Shown: in pieces, positions 24,201 through 49,813 of the stretch | Numbering within the stretch: the stretch's first letter is position 1 | Layout: each line of letters starts with the position of its first letter | Source: Clostridiales bacterium | GTDB taxonomy: Bacteria > Bacillota > Clostridia > Lachnospirales > Lachnospiraceae | Direction of reading: 5' to 3' | Length of the DNA: 64,000 bases | NCBI GenBank assembly: GCA_012520645.1 | Contig: JAAYNV010000027.1 | Span: 62,001-126,000 of the forward strand | Notes under the pieces: model-generated | Databases searched by the model: none | The model's input: only the letters and a program-made list of their open reading frames with translations | What the model was told of the DNA's origin: nothing | Made by a program: the position numbers and the translations under genes

Positions 24201-26216
24201 ATGCAAAAACAATTTCACTTGAAAAAGGGTACGCCATATCCGTTAGGAGTTTCAGCAGCCGGGACGCAGATTAATTTTGCGGCGGTGATGAACACAAAAG
24301 AAAAGAATGGAATACTTCTCTATGAACGCAGTACGCGAAAGCTTGCAGCCAGAATTCCGTTTTGTGCAAAGGAAAGTACAGGAAATATCTGTTGCGGGAT
24401 GTTAGAGAATTTTGAACCGGATCAATACCTGTATAATTTTTACAGTGGGGATCTGGAATATACGGATCCTTATGCAAGAGCTGTATGCGGAAACAGAAAG
24501 AAATACGGAGAATTCCGGTTATCGGATGAGTATGATTGGGAGGAAGATAACCTTCCTGAGATTCCTTATACAGAAAGCATTTTTTATCTTCTGCATGTCA
24601 GGGGATTTACAATGCACAGAACTTCCGGCGTGGAGCATAAAGGGACCTTTCTTGGGATACAGGAAAAGATTCCTTATTTGAAAGAGCTGGGTATTACTAC
24701 GCTGGAGCTGATGCCGGCCTATGAGTTTGAAGAAAAAGAGCCGAGTGTGATGAAAGAACCGATTCCTGTGCCGGAATATATGCAGGAGAGATACAGAAAT
24801 GCGCAGGATATTATCAAATCTGCAGCGCCGTTTGCAGCGGAGGAAAAGAAAAAGAAATCGGTCAGATTGAATTACTGGGGCTACAAGAGCGGAAGTTATT
24901 TTGCACCGAAGCGCTCCTATGCAGCGGGGGAACGTCCGGATGTTGAATTGAAGAATCTGATTAAGGAACTGCATCGAAATCATATGGAGATTATTCTGCA
25001 GTTTTATTTCCCAAAGGAAGTCAAACAGGGCTACATTCTGGAGGTATTAAAATACTGGATTTTGAATTATCATGTGGATGGGATTCATATCAAAGGGGAA
25101 CGGATTCCGATTACCCTGCTTGCGACAGAACCGCTTCTGGCAAACCGTAAGCTTCTCCATCATGAACTGCCTCTTCAGGAAATTTATGGAGAAGGGGAAC
25201 AGCCGGCATATCGAAATCTTGCCTTTTACCGGGATGATTTTATGTATGATATGCGTAAATATCTAAAAGGCGATGATAATATGCTGCAGTCTGTTGTGGA
25301 ATATACAAAAAGGAATACAGGCAAGGCTGCATTCATAAATTTTATGACAAACTATTATGGGTTTACGCTGGAGGATCTGGTTTCCTATGACAGAAAACAC
25401 AATGAAGCAAACGGTGAGGAGAACCATGACGGCACTGATTTTAATTTCAGTTGGAACTGTGGAGCAGAAGGAAAGACAAGGAGAAAATCGGTCAACGAAT
25501 TGAGATTAAAGCAGAAAAAGAATGCCATGACTCTTATGTTGCTTTCGCAGGGTACACCACTTATTCGTGCCGGAGATGAATTTTGTCAGACCCAGAAGGG
25601 GAATAACAACCCTTATTGCCAGGATAATGATATTTCATGGCTTCACTGGGACAGGATGGAACAGGAGAAAGAGTTTTTTGAATTTGTAAAGATGCTGATC
25701 AAGTTTCGTATGGAACAGCCTGTTTTCCATATGGAAGAACCGTTTCGTATGGTGGACTACCGTTCCTATGGTTACCCGGATCTGTCACTGCATGGTGAAG
25801 AGGCATGGAAGGCATATATGCACGGCTATGAGCATCATATCGGAATGCTTTATTGCGGCAGGTATGCAATGCCTTCGATAGAAGGGCAGGGAACCGCCGG
25901 AAAGGAAGCTGATCGTGAGAAAGCTGTAAAACAAGAACCGGCGCAGTTGTTTTATGCTGCCTATAATATGCACTGGCAGAGGCACTTTTTTGGCCTTCCG
26001 TCGTTGCCGGAGGGAGAGGAGTGGAAGCTGGTTTTTACAACGGACAACAATACATCTGAAGCGGAGCAGCTCATACGGAAACAGGAAGAAAATAAACAGG
26101 AAAAGGGCTGTAGAATCTGTATACCGCCTCGAACGATCAGTCTGTTCAAAAGTCAAAAGTCGGCACGAAAGAGCCGGAATAGAAGTAACGGAGGGAGTAA
26201 AAGGAAGAAAGCATGA
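24201..26216 (+). CDS. Glycogen-debranching/isoamylase-like protein with degenerate catalytic motifs
   Basis: A 671-residue GH13 protein related to GlgX/isoamylase, which cleaves alpha-1,6 branches of glycogen. Start at ATG 24201 with AAAGGCGG, not 24141. The scaffold is clear: a CBM48-like N domain, YNFYSGDLEYTDPYA, LNYWGYKSGSYFAPK, and the GlgX signature LVSYDRKHNEANGEENHDG. The catalytic positions are not conserved. Region II reads VDGIHIK, with Lys298 where the Asp nucleophile should be. Region IV reads NYYGFTL, with Tyr-Tyr where His-Asp stabilise the transition state. The region I DVVxNH is EIILQFYF, and the acid Glu is not in place. It is probably catalytically inactive and may bind glucan or play a structural or regulatory role. 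The C-terminus is Lys/Arg-rich. Confidence 0.85.
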   Translation: MQKQFHLKKGTPYPLGVSAAGTQINFAAVMNTKEKNGILLYERSTRKLAARIPFCAKESTGNICCGMLENFEPDQYLYNFYSGDLEYTDPYARAVCGNRKKYGEFRLSDEYDWEEDNLPEIPYTESIFYLLHVRGFTMHRTSGVEHKGTFLGIQEKIPYLKELGITTLELMPAYEFEEKEPSVMKEPIPVPEYMQERYRNAQDIIKSAAPFAAEEKKKKSVRLNYWGYKSGSYFAPKRSYAAGERPDVELKNLIKELHRNHMEIILQFYFPKEVKQGYILEVLKYWILNYHVDGIHIKGERIPITLLATEPLLANRKLLHHELPLQEIYGEGEQPAYRNLAFYRDDFMYDMRKYLKGDDNMLQSVVEYTKRNTGKAAFINFMTNYYGFTLEDLVSYDRKHNEANGEENHDGTDFNFSWNCGAEGKTRRKSVNELRLKQKKNAMTLMLLSQGTPLIRAGDEFCQTQKGNNNPYCQDNDISWLHWDRMEQEKEFFEFVKMLIKFRMEQPVFHMEEPFRMVDYRSYGYPDLSLHGEEAWKAYMHGYEHHIGMLYCGRYAMPSIEGQGTAGKEADREKAVKQEPAQLFYAAYNMHWQRHFFGLPSLPEGEEWKLVFTTDNNTSEAEQLIRKQEENKQEKGCRICIPPRTISLFKSQKSARKSRNRSNGGSKRKKA

Positions 26217-26758
26217 ACTGGTGGAAACATTTCCGGACGATTACTTATCATAAATACTTAGTCATGAAAGGATGCTTTGCAGTTGGACTTTACTGGCAGG
26301 GAATCTGTCATGATCTATCCAAATATTCTCCGGCAGAGTTTTGGGTAGGAGCAAAATACTATCAGGGGAACAGAAGCCCAAACAATGCAGAAAGAGAGGA
26401 ACTTGGTTATTCCGGAGCGTGGCTTCATCATAAGGGCAGGAACAAGCATCATTATGAGTATTGGATGGACTACTGTATCAATCAGCCGGACCGGATCATG
26501 GCGCCGTTCAGAATGCCGGAAAGATATGTGATAGAGATGTTTATGGACCGAATTGCGGCATCTAAGGTATATAATAAGGAAAAATATACAGATTCCTCTC
26601 CACTGCAATATTATCAGGGCAGTCTGGAAAAAGCACCGGATTTTTTACATGAGGATACGAGAAAGGAATTGGAACAGCTGCTTTCCATGCTGGCAGAATC
26701 AGGAGAAACGGAGACGTTTCGTTACATTCGTAAGGAGATATTAAAAAAGAGCGTATAG
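26213..26758 (+). CDS. DUF5662 family protein
   Basis: A 181-residue soluble protein rich in His, Tyr and Trp. It has a run of metal-ligand-like motifs: CHDLSKYSPAEF near residue 32, then LHHKGRNKHHYEYW near 75. The HD pair and clustered histidines resemble a small HD-like metal-binding fold, and the whole matches the pattern I know as DUF5662. Function unknown. The ATG overlaps the stop codon of the debranching-like gene by 4 bases (ATGA), so the two are translationally coupled and may act together. Confidence 0.8.
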   Translation: MNWWKHFRTITYHKYLVMKGCFAVGLYWQGICHDLSKYSPAEFWVGAKYYQGNRSPNNAEREELGYSGAWLHHKGRNKHHYEYWMDYCINQPDRIMAPFRMPERYVIEMFMDRIAASKVYNKEKYTDSSPLQYYQGSLEKAPDFLHEDTRKELEQLLSMLAESGETETFRYIRKEILKKSV

Positions 26759-26834: not shown

Positions 26835-27170
26835 ATGAATTGTTTGTGCTGGTTATTGATTTTACTATGCTGCGGAAGAAATAATAGTTGGGGAAACAAC
26901 TGTGGCTGCGGCAGGGATAATGACTGCAGAAGGGATAACGACCGTAGAAGGGACAATGACTGTGGCTGCAAGAAGGACAATGACTGCAGAAGGGATAACG
27001 ACTGTGGCTGCAAAAATGACAATGACCGCAGAAGGGATAACGACTGCGGCTGTGGCAGAGACAGCGACCGGGACAGAGATAATGACTGCAGCAGACCCGT
27101 ACCACCACCGCCAATGCCTCGTCCTTTTTCGGGATTCCCGGGTCAGGGAACATGCGGCTGTGAAGAATAG
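26835..27170 (+). CDS. Cys/Asp/Arg-rich tandem-repeat small protein
   Basis: A 111-residue protein that starts with a short hydrophobic, Cys-containing segment (MNCLCWLLILLCCG), followed by about nine copies of a six-residue unit of the type RRDNDC or CGCKxDND, then a proline-rich turn (PVPPPPMPRP) and a final CGCEE. The codons repeat too (GACTGCAGAAGGGATAAC-like units). An AAGGAG site precedes the ATG by 11 bases and a terminator follows. The track ORFs in the other frames over this stretch are shadows of the repeat. Small Cys-rich repeat proteins like this recur in Lachnospiraceae, but I know no function. Membrane anchoring with metal binding or surface coating are possibilities only. Confidence 0.72.
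   Translation: MNCLCWLLILLCCGRNNSWGNNCGCGRDNDCRRDNDRRRDNDCGCKKDNDCRRDNDCGCKNDNDRRRDNDCGCGRDSDRDRDNDCSRPVPPPPMPRPFSGFPGQGTCGCEE
26904..27090 (+). repeat. In-frame 18-base coding repeat
   Basis: Imperfect tandem units such as GACTGCAGAAGGGATAAC and AATGACTGTGGCTGC recur about nine times inside the Cys-rich gene. All units keep the frame, so copy number can change without breaking the protein. Confidence 0.8.
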
Positions 27171-47440: not shown

Positions 47441-49813
47441 ATGAATGACAGACTTTATAAATTAATGGATTGGCCGGAAATTGAAGCGATAGTTTATTCA
47501 GAGGAGGACGATCCACATCATATTCTGGGACCGCATATTGTAGGAAACGGAGTACTTGTGCAGACATATATCCCGGGAGCAGATTCCGTACGGCTGCAGG
47601 TAAAGAACGGAAAGACTTATCGTATGGAATTAGCGGATGAATCCGGTTACTTTGCATGTCTGCTGCCTGGCAAAAAGATTCCGGAGTATACCTATCTTGT
47701 AAAGAGGAAAAACAGTATAGAGCAGGAAATAGAGGATCCGTATCGTTTTGAACCGGTGATCAGCAAACGTGACACCCATAAGTTTAATACAGGAATTCAT
47801 TATGAAGCATATCGGATTCTGGGAGCACACTGCATGAGTATAGATGGGGTAGAGGGAGTGCATTTTGCTGTTTGGGCTCCAAATGCTGTGCGTGTCAGTG
47901 TAGTAGGTGATTTCAATGACTGGGATGGCAGGGCGCATCAGATGCGCAGATTATGGGATTCCGGTATTTTTGAGATCTTTGTGCCGGGAGTGCCGGAAGG
48001 TAGTATTTACAAATATGAGATTAAAGTCAAAGGAGGACTGACCTATCTGAAGGCAGATCCTTATGCGTTTGGACAGCAGCTTCGTCCGGAAACTGCCTCT
48101 GTAGTTCGTCGGATCGATGGTTTTGCATGGGAAGATGAAGAATGGATCAGTAAAAGAGCGGAATATCAGAATCCAAAGCAGCCGGTCAGCGTATATGAGA
48201 TGCATCTGGCATCCTTTAAAAAGCCCAAAGATGAAAAAGTTTTCTATAATTACAGGGAACTGGCACCCGAGGTTATTTCTTATATCAAAGAGATGGGATA
48301 TACCCATATTGAATTGATGCCTGTAATGGAGCATCCTTTTGATGCGTCATGGGGCTATCAGGTCATAGGTTATTATGCACCGACCTCCAGATACGGTACG
48401 CCGGAGGATTTTATGTACTTCATCAATGAACTGCACAAGGCAGGAATCGGTGTGATTTTAGACTGGGTGCCGGCACATTTTCCGAGAGATACCTATGGAC
48501 TTTCCAACTTTGACGGTACCTGTCTGTATGAGCATGCGGATCCGCGAAAAGGAAGCCATCCTCACTGGGGAACACTGATTTATAATTACGGCAGACCGGA
48601 GGTGGCAAACTACCTGATTGCCAATGCGCTGTACTGGGTAGAGCAGTTCCATGCGGACGGTATCCGTATGGATGCGGTGGCCAGCATGCTGTATCTGGAC
48701 TATGGTAAAAGTGACGGCGAATGGCTGGCAAATATGTATGGCGGCAATGAAAATCTGGAGGCTATGGAATTTTTAAAACACTTAAATTCTGTTATGCACA
48801 AGAGAAATAAAGGTGCGATCACGATTGCAGAGGAATCTACCGCATGGCCGAAGGTGACAGGGGATCTGAAGGAGGACGGACTTGGCTTTGACTTTAAGTG
48901 GAATATGGGCTGGATGAATGACTATCTGCAGTATATCAAATATGATCCATATTTCAGGGCCCACCATCATGGTGAACTGACCTTCAGCATGATCTATACT
49001 TATAGTGAAAAATTTATGCTGGTATTTTCTCATGATGAGGTTGTACATGGCAAGGCGACCATGATCGGAAAGATGCCGGGTAAGAGAAAGGATCAGTTTG
49101 CAAACCTGCGTGCCACCTATGCGTATATGATGATGCACCCGGGCAAAAAACTGTTATTCATGGGGCAGGATCTGGCGGAATATGATGAATGGAATGAAGA
49201 ACGTGAACTGGAGTGGAATCTGCTTGAAGTAGAGGAACATAGACAGATTAATACGCTTATGAAGGAATTGAACGGCTTCTACAGAGAACATCCGTCTTTG
49301 TATGCCATGGATGATGAGCCGGCAGGCTTTGAGTGGATCAATAATATGAACGCTGAGGACTGTGTGCTGACCTTCTTAAGAAAAACGGACAAGACAAAGG
49401 ACATGCTGCTTGTTGTGGTGAATTTTGCCAATGTGGAGCGGAAGGAATACCGTGTTGGAGTTCCGTTTGCTGGAAAGTATAAAGAATTGCTTAATACGGA
49501 TGCAGAGAAATATGGTGGAAATGGTATTGTCAATAAGAGACAGTGCTGCTCTGATGAAAAGGAATGGGACGGAAGAGAAAATTCCATCGAGATCAATGTG
49601 GGACCGCTTAGTGTTGCTGTATTCAGTTGTGTACCTTATACGGAAGAGGAACTGAAGGAGATGGTATTAAAGGCTGCCCTGAAAGAGAAAGAAGAAGCAC
49701 TAAGGGCTGTGAAACTGGCAGAGGAGCGTGCAAGAAAAGCGGAGATTGAACTGGAGAAGGTACGGAAGGCAAAAGCAGAAAAAACAAAAAAGAGAAAAAA
49801 ATCAGAAAAATAA
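47441..49813 (+). CDS. glgB: 1,4-alpha-glucan branching enzyme
   Basis: A 790-residue GH13 enzyme that creates alpha-1,6 branches in glycogen. Order: N-terminal GlgB domain, CBM48 (about 130-225, VHFAVWAPNAVRVSVVGDFNDW), the catalytic barrel and a C domain. The catalytic residues are intact: nucleophile Asp in ADGIRMDAVASML (about 410), acid Glu in ITIAEEST, and FSHDEVVHGK (about 529). It is longer than typical because the last 60 residues form a Lys/Glu-rich helix (KEKEEALRAVKLAEERARK onward) that looks like a coiled coil. ATG 47441 follows AGGGGGACAC. The MscS gene begins 20 bp later. Confidence 0.97.
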   Translation: MNDRLYKLMDWPEIEAIVYSEEDDPHHILGPHIVGNGVLVQTYIPGADSVRLQVKNGKTYRMELADESGYFACLLPGKKIPEYTYLVKRKNSIEQEIEDPYRFEPVISKRDTHKFNTGIHYEAYRILGAHCMSIDGVEGVHFAVWAPNAVRVSVVGDFNDWDGRAHQMRRLWDSGIFEIFVPGVPEGSIYKYEIKVKGGLTYLKADPYAFGQQLRPETASVVRRIDGFAWEDEEWISKRAEYQNPKQPVSVYEMHLASFKKPKDEKVFYNYRELAPEVISYIKEMGYTHIELMPVMEHPFDASWGYQVIGYYAPTSRYGTPEDFMYFINELHKAGIGVILDWVPAHFPRDTYGLSNFDGTCLYEHADPRKGSHPHWGTLIYNYGRPEVANYLIANALYWVEQFHADGIRMDAVASMLYLDYGKSDGEWLANMYGGNENLEAMEFLKHLNSVMHKRNKGAITIAEESTAWPKVTGDLKEDGLGFDFKWNMGWMNDYLQYIKYDPYFRAHHHGELTFSMIYTYSEKFMLVFSHDEVVHGKATMIGKMPGKRKDQFANLRATYAYMMMHPGKKLLFMGQDLAEYDEWNEERELEWNLLEVEEHRQINTLMKELNGFYREHPSLYAMDDEPAGFEWINNMNAEDCVLTFLRKTDKTKDMLLVVVNFANVERKEYRVGVPFAGKYKELLNTDAEKYGGNGIVNKRQCCSDEKEWDGRENSIEINVGPLSVAVFSCVPYTEEELKEMVLKAALKEKEEALRAVKLAEERARKAEIELEKVRKAKAEKTKKRKKSEK

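Follow-up and report, generated by a model that had tools for sequence, protein, structure and literature searches.

The window, the whole 64,000-nucleotide stretch of Lachnospiraceae DNA analysed here, encodes a predicted catalytically dead relative of the glycogen-debranching enzyme GlgX, hereafter pseudo-GlgX. We put at roughly 55% the probability that this protein is a GlgX paralogue whose catalytic activity disappeared a single time, early in the history of Lachnospiraceae, and which persists as a cytoplasmic protein that binds alpha-glucan without catalysis. The gene and two domains of its product were delimited as follows:

24201-26216, + strand: pseudo-GlgX, a predicted catalytically dead GlgX/isoamylase-like protein of 671 amino acids (open reading frame list, profile and PDB searches, alignments, AlphaFold2, Foldseek)
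24201-24467, + strand: N-terminal CBM48-like beta domain, residues 1-89 (profile alignment with the GlgX N-terminal domain)
24582-25577, + strand: (beta/alpha)8 barrel, residues 128-459 (AlphaFold2 model, Foldseek)

The frame is open over 671 codons, as the preliminary description had stated. With Pfam the protein matched the alpha-amylase catalytic domain and nothing else, CBM48 remaining below threshold on residues 1-89. Against TIGR02100, the NCBIfam model of GlgX, it scored 288.3 bits and did not reach the equivalog cut-off of 640.9 bits. A PDB search returned archaeal TreX/GlgX 2vnc as the nearest solved structure (4e-65), with Chlamydomonas and plant ISA1 and Streptomyces GlgX as further top relatives, and the profile of the family matched that of GlgX with an E value of 6e-180, the three-domain GlgX fold being shared. 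The AlphaFold2 model, computed from an alignment of 53 family members, reached a mean pLDDT of 88 and contains all eight barrel strands (residues 128-131, 167-170, 263-270, 294-299, 317-320, 340-343, 377-380 and 452-456); its first Foldseek matches were ISA1, GlgX and TreX, with TM-scores of about 0.75. A full-length GlgX/isoamylase fold is thus predicted, and the earlier claim that the scaffold is preserved together with its signature holds on both counts, LVSYDRKHNEANGE and GNNNPYCQDN being intact. On these sequence and profile comparisons the window gene is a descendant of the gene for GlgX, that is, a GH13_11 paralogue.

The catalytic columns were read from alignments with the PDB enzymes and with 35 canonical GlgX proteins and from a profile-profile comparison. 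Alignments place the following degenerate regions in the window protein:

24987-25016, + strand: region I, E263-K272, EIILQFYFPK against EVILDVVFNH
25077-25100, + strand: region II, D293-E300, DGIHIKGE against DGFRFDLA, with K298 in place of the nucleophile
25149-25175, + strand: region III, K317-L325, KLLHHELPL against KLIAEAWDA, with H321 in place of the acid Glu
25344-25367, + strand: region IV, M382-T389, MTNYYGFT against xTCHDGFT, with Y385-Y386 in place of His-Asp

The PDB, canonical-GlgX and profile alignments agree that Lys298 stands in place of the Asp nucleophile, as had been proposed from the sequence, and the Arg ahead of the nucleophile is replaced by H296. The other losses named in the preliminary description were confirmed by alignment as well: the His-Asp of region IV is Tyr385-Tyr386, the DVVxNH motif of region I is gone (Q267-FYFPK for DVVFNH), and the acid Glu is displaced, its column holding H321 and the nearest Glu, E322, lying one position off and not being conserved. 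That description had missed two deletions relative to GlgX: about 45 residues are gone behind region I, and some 14 behind region II.

Alignment with relatives showed that the triad is incomplete in all 84 homologues. One of them has the nucleophile Asp, 16 have the acid Glu and 15 the third Asp; none has all three, and two together, the maximum, occur in 3. Position 298 is occupied by N, M, I, L, V, K and other residues, with no conserved replacement. Because the same losses recur across the 84 homologues, the substitutions in the window protein go beyond chance. L029 (genome G006; region II DGFVLDEW) is alone in the family in having the nucleophile Asp, and its other catalytic residues are absent. 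Alternative catalytic residues were sought by profile-profile alignment, AlphaFold2 secondary structure and column conservation, and no conserved Asp or Glu was found to replace the triad. The family thus combines a GH13_11 fold with lineage-wide replacement of the nucleophile and most catalytic residues, as in proteins of the ISA2 type. Judged by these columns, the window protein likely cannot work as a debranching enzyme. Since it lacks the triad that defines the active GlgX family, it lies outside that family; nor is it an orthologue of ISA2.

In a search of 61 genomes, 30 of the 37 sampled from Lachnospiraceae proved to encode a protein of this kind, and a contig scan gave 80 named loci, 54 of the pseudo type and 26 canonical GlgX. 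The 54 loci come mostly from records named as Lachnospiraceae, with a few under looser names, and cover Acetatifactor, Butyrivibrio, Roseburia, Dorea, Oribacterium, Velocimicrobium and other genera. Two members of the pseudo family, L020 (an open frame of 813 amino acids) and L096 (863 amino acids), are markedly longer than the usual 560-700 amino acids. We then used a family-specific model covering residues 223-386, where pseudo and canonical proteins differ, and defined a strong match as E below 1e-24. Such matches were found in about 196 of 250 Lachnospiraceae genera, a count from which the weak matches in G005 and G268 were left out as probably canonical GlgX. In a Clostridia sample of 391 genomes strong matches were restricted to Lachnospiraceae, with none in about 370 genomes elsewhere; four partial matches of about 1e-16 outside the family come from frames of 702-752 amino acids, as canonical GlgX would give.

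A tree of the 84 pseudo and 35 canonical proteins, the latter all with intact active sites, was split into these two sets by one branch with 100% support. When type I pullulanase was included as outgroup under a mixture model, pseudo and GlgX proteins together formed a clade with 100% support, inside which the pseudo proteins again formed a 100% clade. Because the triad is present in GlgX as well as in the pullulanase outgroup, its loss is derived, and the trees indicate that catalysis was lost once, early in Lachnospiraceae. Comparison with the same-genus orthologue (71% identity) gave a dN/dS of 0.14 and less than 0.28 in every sub-region, against 0.11 for the adjoining UvrD gene; dS is high and these values are approximate. 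The ratio indicates purifying selection. The view that this is a conserved pseudo-glycosidase and not a case of recent decay is therefore upheld by family-wide occurrence, a single fully supported clade, purifying selection and the lack of an alternative Asp/Glu triad. A recent pseudogene was likewise ruled out by the intact frames, the dN/dS value, the one ancient clade and the family-wide presence. Searches of phage and defence libraries gave no match relevant to the window protein.

Of 177 columns near-invariant in canonical GlgX (at least 95%), the pseudo family retains 71, each in no fewer than 80% of its proteins, and has lost 66. The deleted loops account for 29 of these losses, and the remainder are mostly clustered in regions I-IV. 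Three retained segments hold residues equivalent to glucan contacts of GlgX:

24870-24884, + strand: retained NYWGY, residues 224-228, with W226 and Y228 equivalent to GlgX glucan contacts W222 and Y224 (alignment; PMC9530166)
25389-25472, + strand: retained loop DRKHNEANGEENHDG...SWNCGAEG, residues 397-424, including E406, equivalent to GlgX glucan contact E470 (alignment)
25599-25628, + strand: retained GNNNPYCQDN loop, residues 467-476, with N470 and Y472 equivalent to GlgX glucan contacts N534 and Y536 (alignment)

In S. venezuelae GlgX, acarbose is contacted at the -1 sugar by W222, Y224, H271, D342, E378, W380 and H449 and further out by R212, E470, N534 and Y536 (Schumacher et al., PMC9530166). 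We mapped these contacts by alignment, the PDB chain index being the published number plus 3. In the window protein the -1 contacts fall on W226, Y228, K272, K298, region III and Y385, and the outer ones on E406, N470 and Y472, while R212 maps to a variable insert. Across the 84 pseudo proteins W226, an aromatic residue at 228, N470 and an aromatic residue at 472 are each found in 84 and E406 in 83, whereas the equivalents of GlgX H271, D342, E378, H449 and D450 are variable. At E406 the pseudo family keeps Glu, the glucan-contact residue of Streptomyces GlgX, where many Bacillota GlgX proteins have Trp. This Trp is present in 22 of the 35 canonical GlgX proteins (for example L031, L036 and L139) and possibly reflects changed substrate binding in these active enzymes. 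Against TreX, GlgX and ISA1, segment 376-520 of the window protein scored 164, 153 and 136 bits. By contrast, it scored only 33-34 bits against plant ISA2, an independently inactivated isoamylase with no glucan in its central channel (PMC12510319). The retained pattern fits a groove that would still hold an outer alpha-glucan chain without cutting it. The retained loops, which are invariant in active GlgX too, may also be kept for folding or structure, and a groove without 45 residues of its cleft wall may no longer bind glucan.

Directly downstream of pseudo-GlgX lies a gene that the preliminary description had considered to be coupled to it:

26213-26758, + strand: DUF5662 protein (profile match; 4-bp overlap with the pseudo-GlgX stop, ATGA at 26213)

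The gene block GltX-UvrD-DUF1292 (- strand)-pseudo-GlgX-DUF5662 is an old one, found in part in many genera, with variants in which a TraX-like gene is inserted or TrpS lies downstream; no glycogen genes were found in this neighbourhood, which consists of GltX, UvrD, DUF1292, DUF5662, TraX and TrpS. Translation of the two genes is often coupled: the 4-bp overlap occurs in 10 of 27 measured contexts, the window included, and in most others the genes are at most 28 bp apart. The proposed link is thus partly supported, the two genes being closely paired in many genera. DUF5662 nevertheless exists in genomes without a pseudo-GlgX gene and in other families, so inherited gene order may explain part of the pairing. 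In 17 of 76 contexts (for example L099 and L104) a gene for a TraX-like membrane protein directly follows pseudo-GlgX, and DUF5662 was found about 570-780 bp further on in the TraX contexts L088, L099, L104, L107, L111, L113 and L134. Alignment of DUF5662 relatives revealed invariant H33-D34, H72-H73 and H79-H80. Its model is mostly helical, and a fold search gave no significant match, HD-type hydrolases being among the top non-significant hits. The invariant His-Asp and paired His motifs suggest a metal-dependent hydrolase-like protein. Just past DUF5662, a small open reading frame (26835-27170, + strand) encodes a hydrophobic N-terminus followed by tandem repeats rich in Cys, Asp, Asn and Arg, with a period of 42 bp and related periods. 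A promoter and terminator scan yielded nothing above chance.

Glycogen synthase (glgA) was detected in 242 of 250 Lachnospiraceae genomes. Co-occurrence with glgA was taken up as a check on a role in glycogen metabolism: pseudo-GlgX is absent from 5 of the 8 glgA-negative genomes against 49 of the 242 glgA-positive ones (Fisher p 0.013), but several of the negatives are incomplete assemblies. The window genome (88% complete) encodes glycogen synthase, several alpha-glucosidases and two GlgB-type enzymes; an active-type GlgB lies 23.2 kb from pseudo-GlgX (47441-49813; TIGR01515, 873 bits), in agreement with the preliminary description. At the thresholds used this genome contained no canonical GlgX and no type I pullulanase, and a candidate GDE_C domain (PF06202) was rejected, its one match scoring 21.5 bits in an 837-amino-acid frame.

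We suggest that pseudo-GlgX would grip glycogen by its outer chains, leaving these uncut, and might thereby recruit or modulate GlgB, GlgP, GlgX, pullulanase or alpha-1,6-glucosidases, or influence particle structure; DUF5662, often on the same mRNA, could be a partner or a mere neighbour. From the near-invariant distal contacts, the lost wall of the -1 subsite and the purifying selection we infer a putative glucan binder. Against this stand the lack of glycogen genes among the neighbours and the presence of the gene in two genomes without detectable glgA, G067 and G273 (95% complete). The near-invariance of the distal contacts also argues against a barrel that has become independent of glycogen and now does no more than bind other proteins, DUF5662 perhaps among them, like the barrels of 4F2hc/rBAT. 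We regard such a scaffold as improbable, although the old active-site face is variable with no new conserved polar cluster, the neighbours are not glycogen genes and the pair with DUF5662 is tight; the occurrence of DUF5662 apart from pseudo-GlgX and in other families speaks against it too.

The debranching genes of the carriers bear on two further explanations. Canonical GlgX is present in 9 of the 30 sampled carriers, including the same-genus genome G001, and type I pullulanase scores above the cut-off in 8. These are candidate partners if the dead protein hetero-oligomerises with a functional debranching enzyme and directs its action on glycogen, as plant ISA2 does with ISA1 (PMC12510319). 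Yet canonical GlgX is missing from 21 of the 30 carriers, and both enzymes are missing from 15, the window genome included, which argues that such a partner cannot be general, and an obligatory ISA2-type GlgX partner was ruled out as a general rule by the 21; we consider a subunit of this kind doubtful. All of the 15, some of them 96-100% complete, have glycogen synthase, so the debranching step of these species is unaccounted for. Pseudo-GlgX could fill this gap were it still an enzyme acting through other residues, by altered debranching, transfer or other chemistry. This we hold to be highly improbable, since the nucleophile, acid and third-Asp positions are all variable and the strand ends show no conserved acidic pair that could take their place. 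Returning to the glucan-binding reading, a more far-reaching form of it is that most Lachnospiraceae use a non-catalytic, glycogen-binding, DUF5662-coupled protein derived from GlgX in core glycogen handling, which in species without a known debranching enzyme would be the adaptor that lets other alpha-glucosidases debranch. We offer this as a tentative and rather unlikely extension; if true, it would describe an independently evolved bacterial counterpart of plant ISA2.

We found no description of a bacterial pseudo-GlgX family in the open-access literature searched, and the family is likely new. It is a conserved protein of a main gut bacterial family and is probably often annotated as a debranching enzyme. 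In one published survey of glycogen genes in the gut, 20% identity across 50% of the length was enough for a GlgX homologue to be accepted (PMC10395257). Pseudo-GlgX would probably pass this threshold, so that some Lachnospiraceae would have been scored as debranchers though they lack GlgX. Genome surveys are likely mistaken where they list pseudo-GlgX among functional debranching enzymes. The family also offers a bacterial system, in which deletion and complementation are possible, for the non-catalytic roles of isoamylase-like proteins that have so far been studied mainly in plants.

Compared with the GlgX/isoamylase enzymes of GH13 subfamily 11, for which E. coli GlgX (2wsk), TreX (2vnc), S. 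venezuelae GlgX (7u39-7u3d) and ISA1 served as references, pseudo-GlgX has the same overall fold, domain order and distal glucan-contact residues, as well as the KHNExNGExNxDG...SWNCGxEG and GNNNxYCQDN loops. It differs in lacking the catalytic triad and the His/Arg/Trp set of the -1 subsite, in the deletion of two loops and in scoring far under the GlgX equivalog cut-off. The heavy chains 4F2hc and rBAT (GH13_34/35) are also derived from GH13 and have a barrel without catalysis that serves as a protein platform. Pseudo-GlgX resembles them in having an alpha-amylase-family barrel without catalysis, but they are membrane-anchored subunits of eukaryotic transporters whereas it is predicted to be soluble and derived from GlgX. 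In our view the nearest known analogue is plant ISA2, a non-catalytic GH13_11 paralogue in which catalysis was lost once in an ancestor and which is conserved through its whole lineage (PMC12510319). ISA2 needs ISA1 as partner, with which it forms a hetero-oligomer that steers the active enzyme; it binds glucan at SBS1 only, its central channel being closed, and carries an extra N-terminal beta-sandwich ahead of CBM48 (PMC12510319). Pseudo-GlgX has no such extra domain, its CBM48-like strands beginning at residue 6 in the AlphaFold2 model, often has no GlgX in the genome and retains the distal residues of the central groove. In each of the two lineages, independently, catalysis was lost once in an ancestor and the non-catalytic protein was conserved thereafter.
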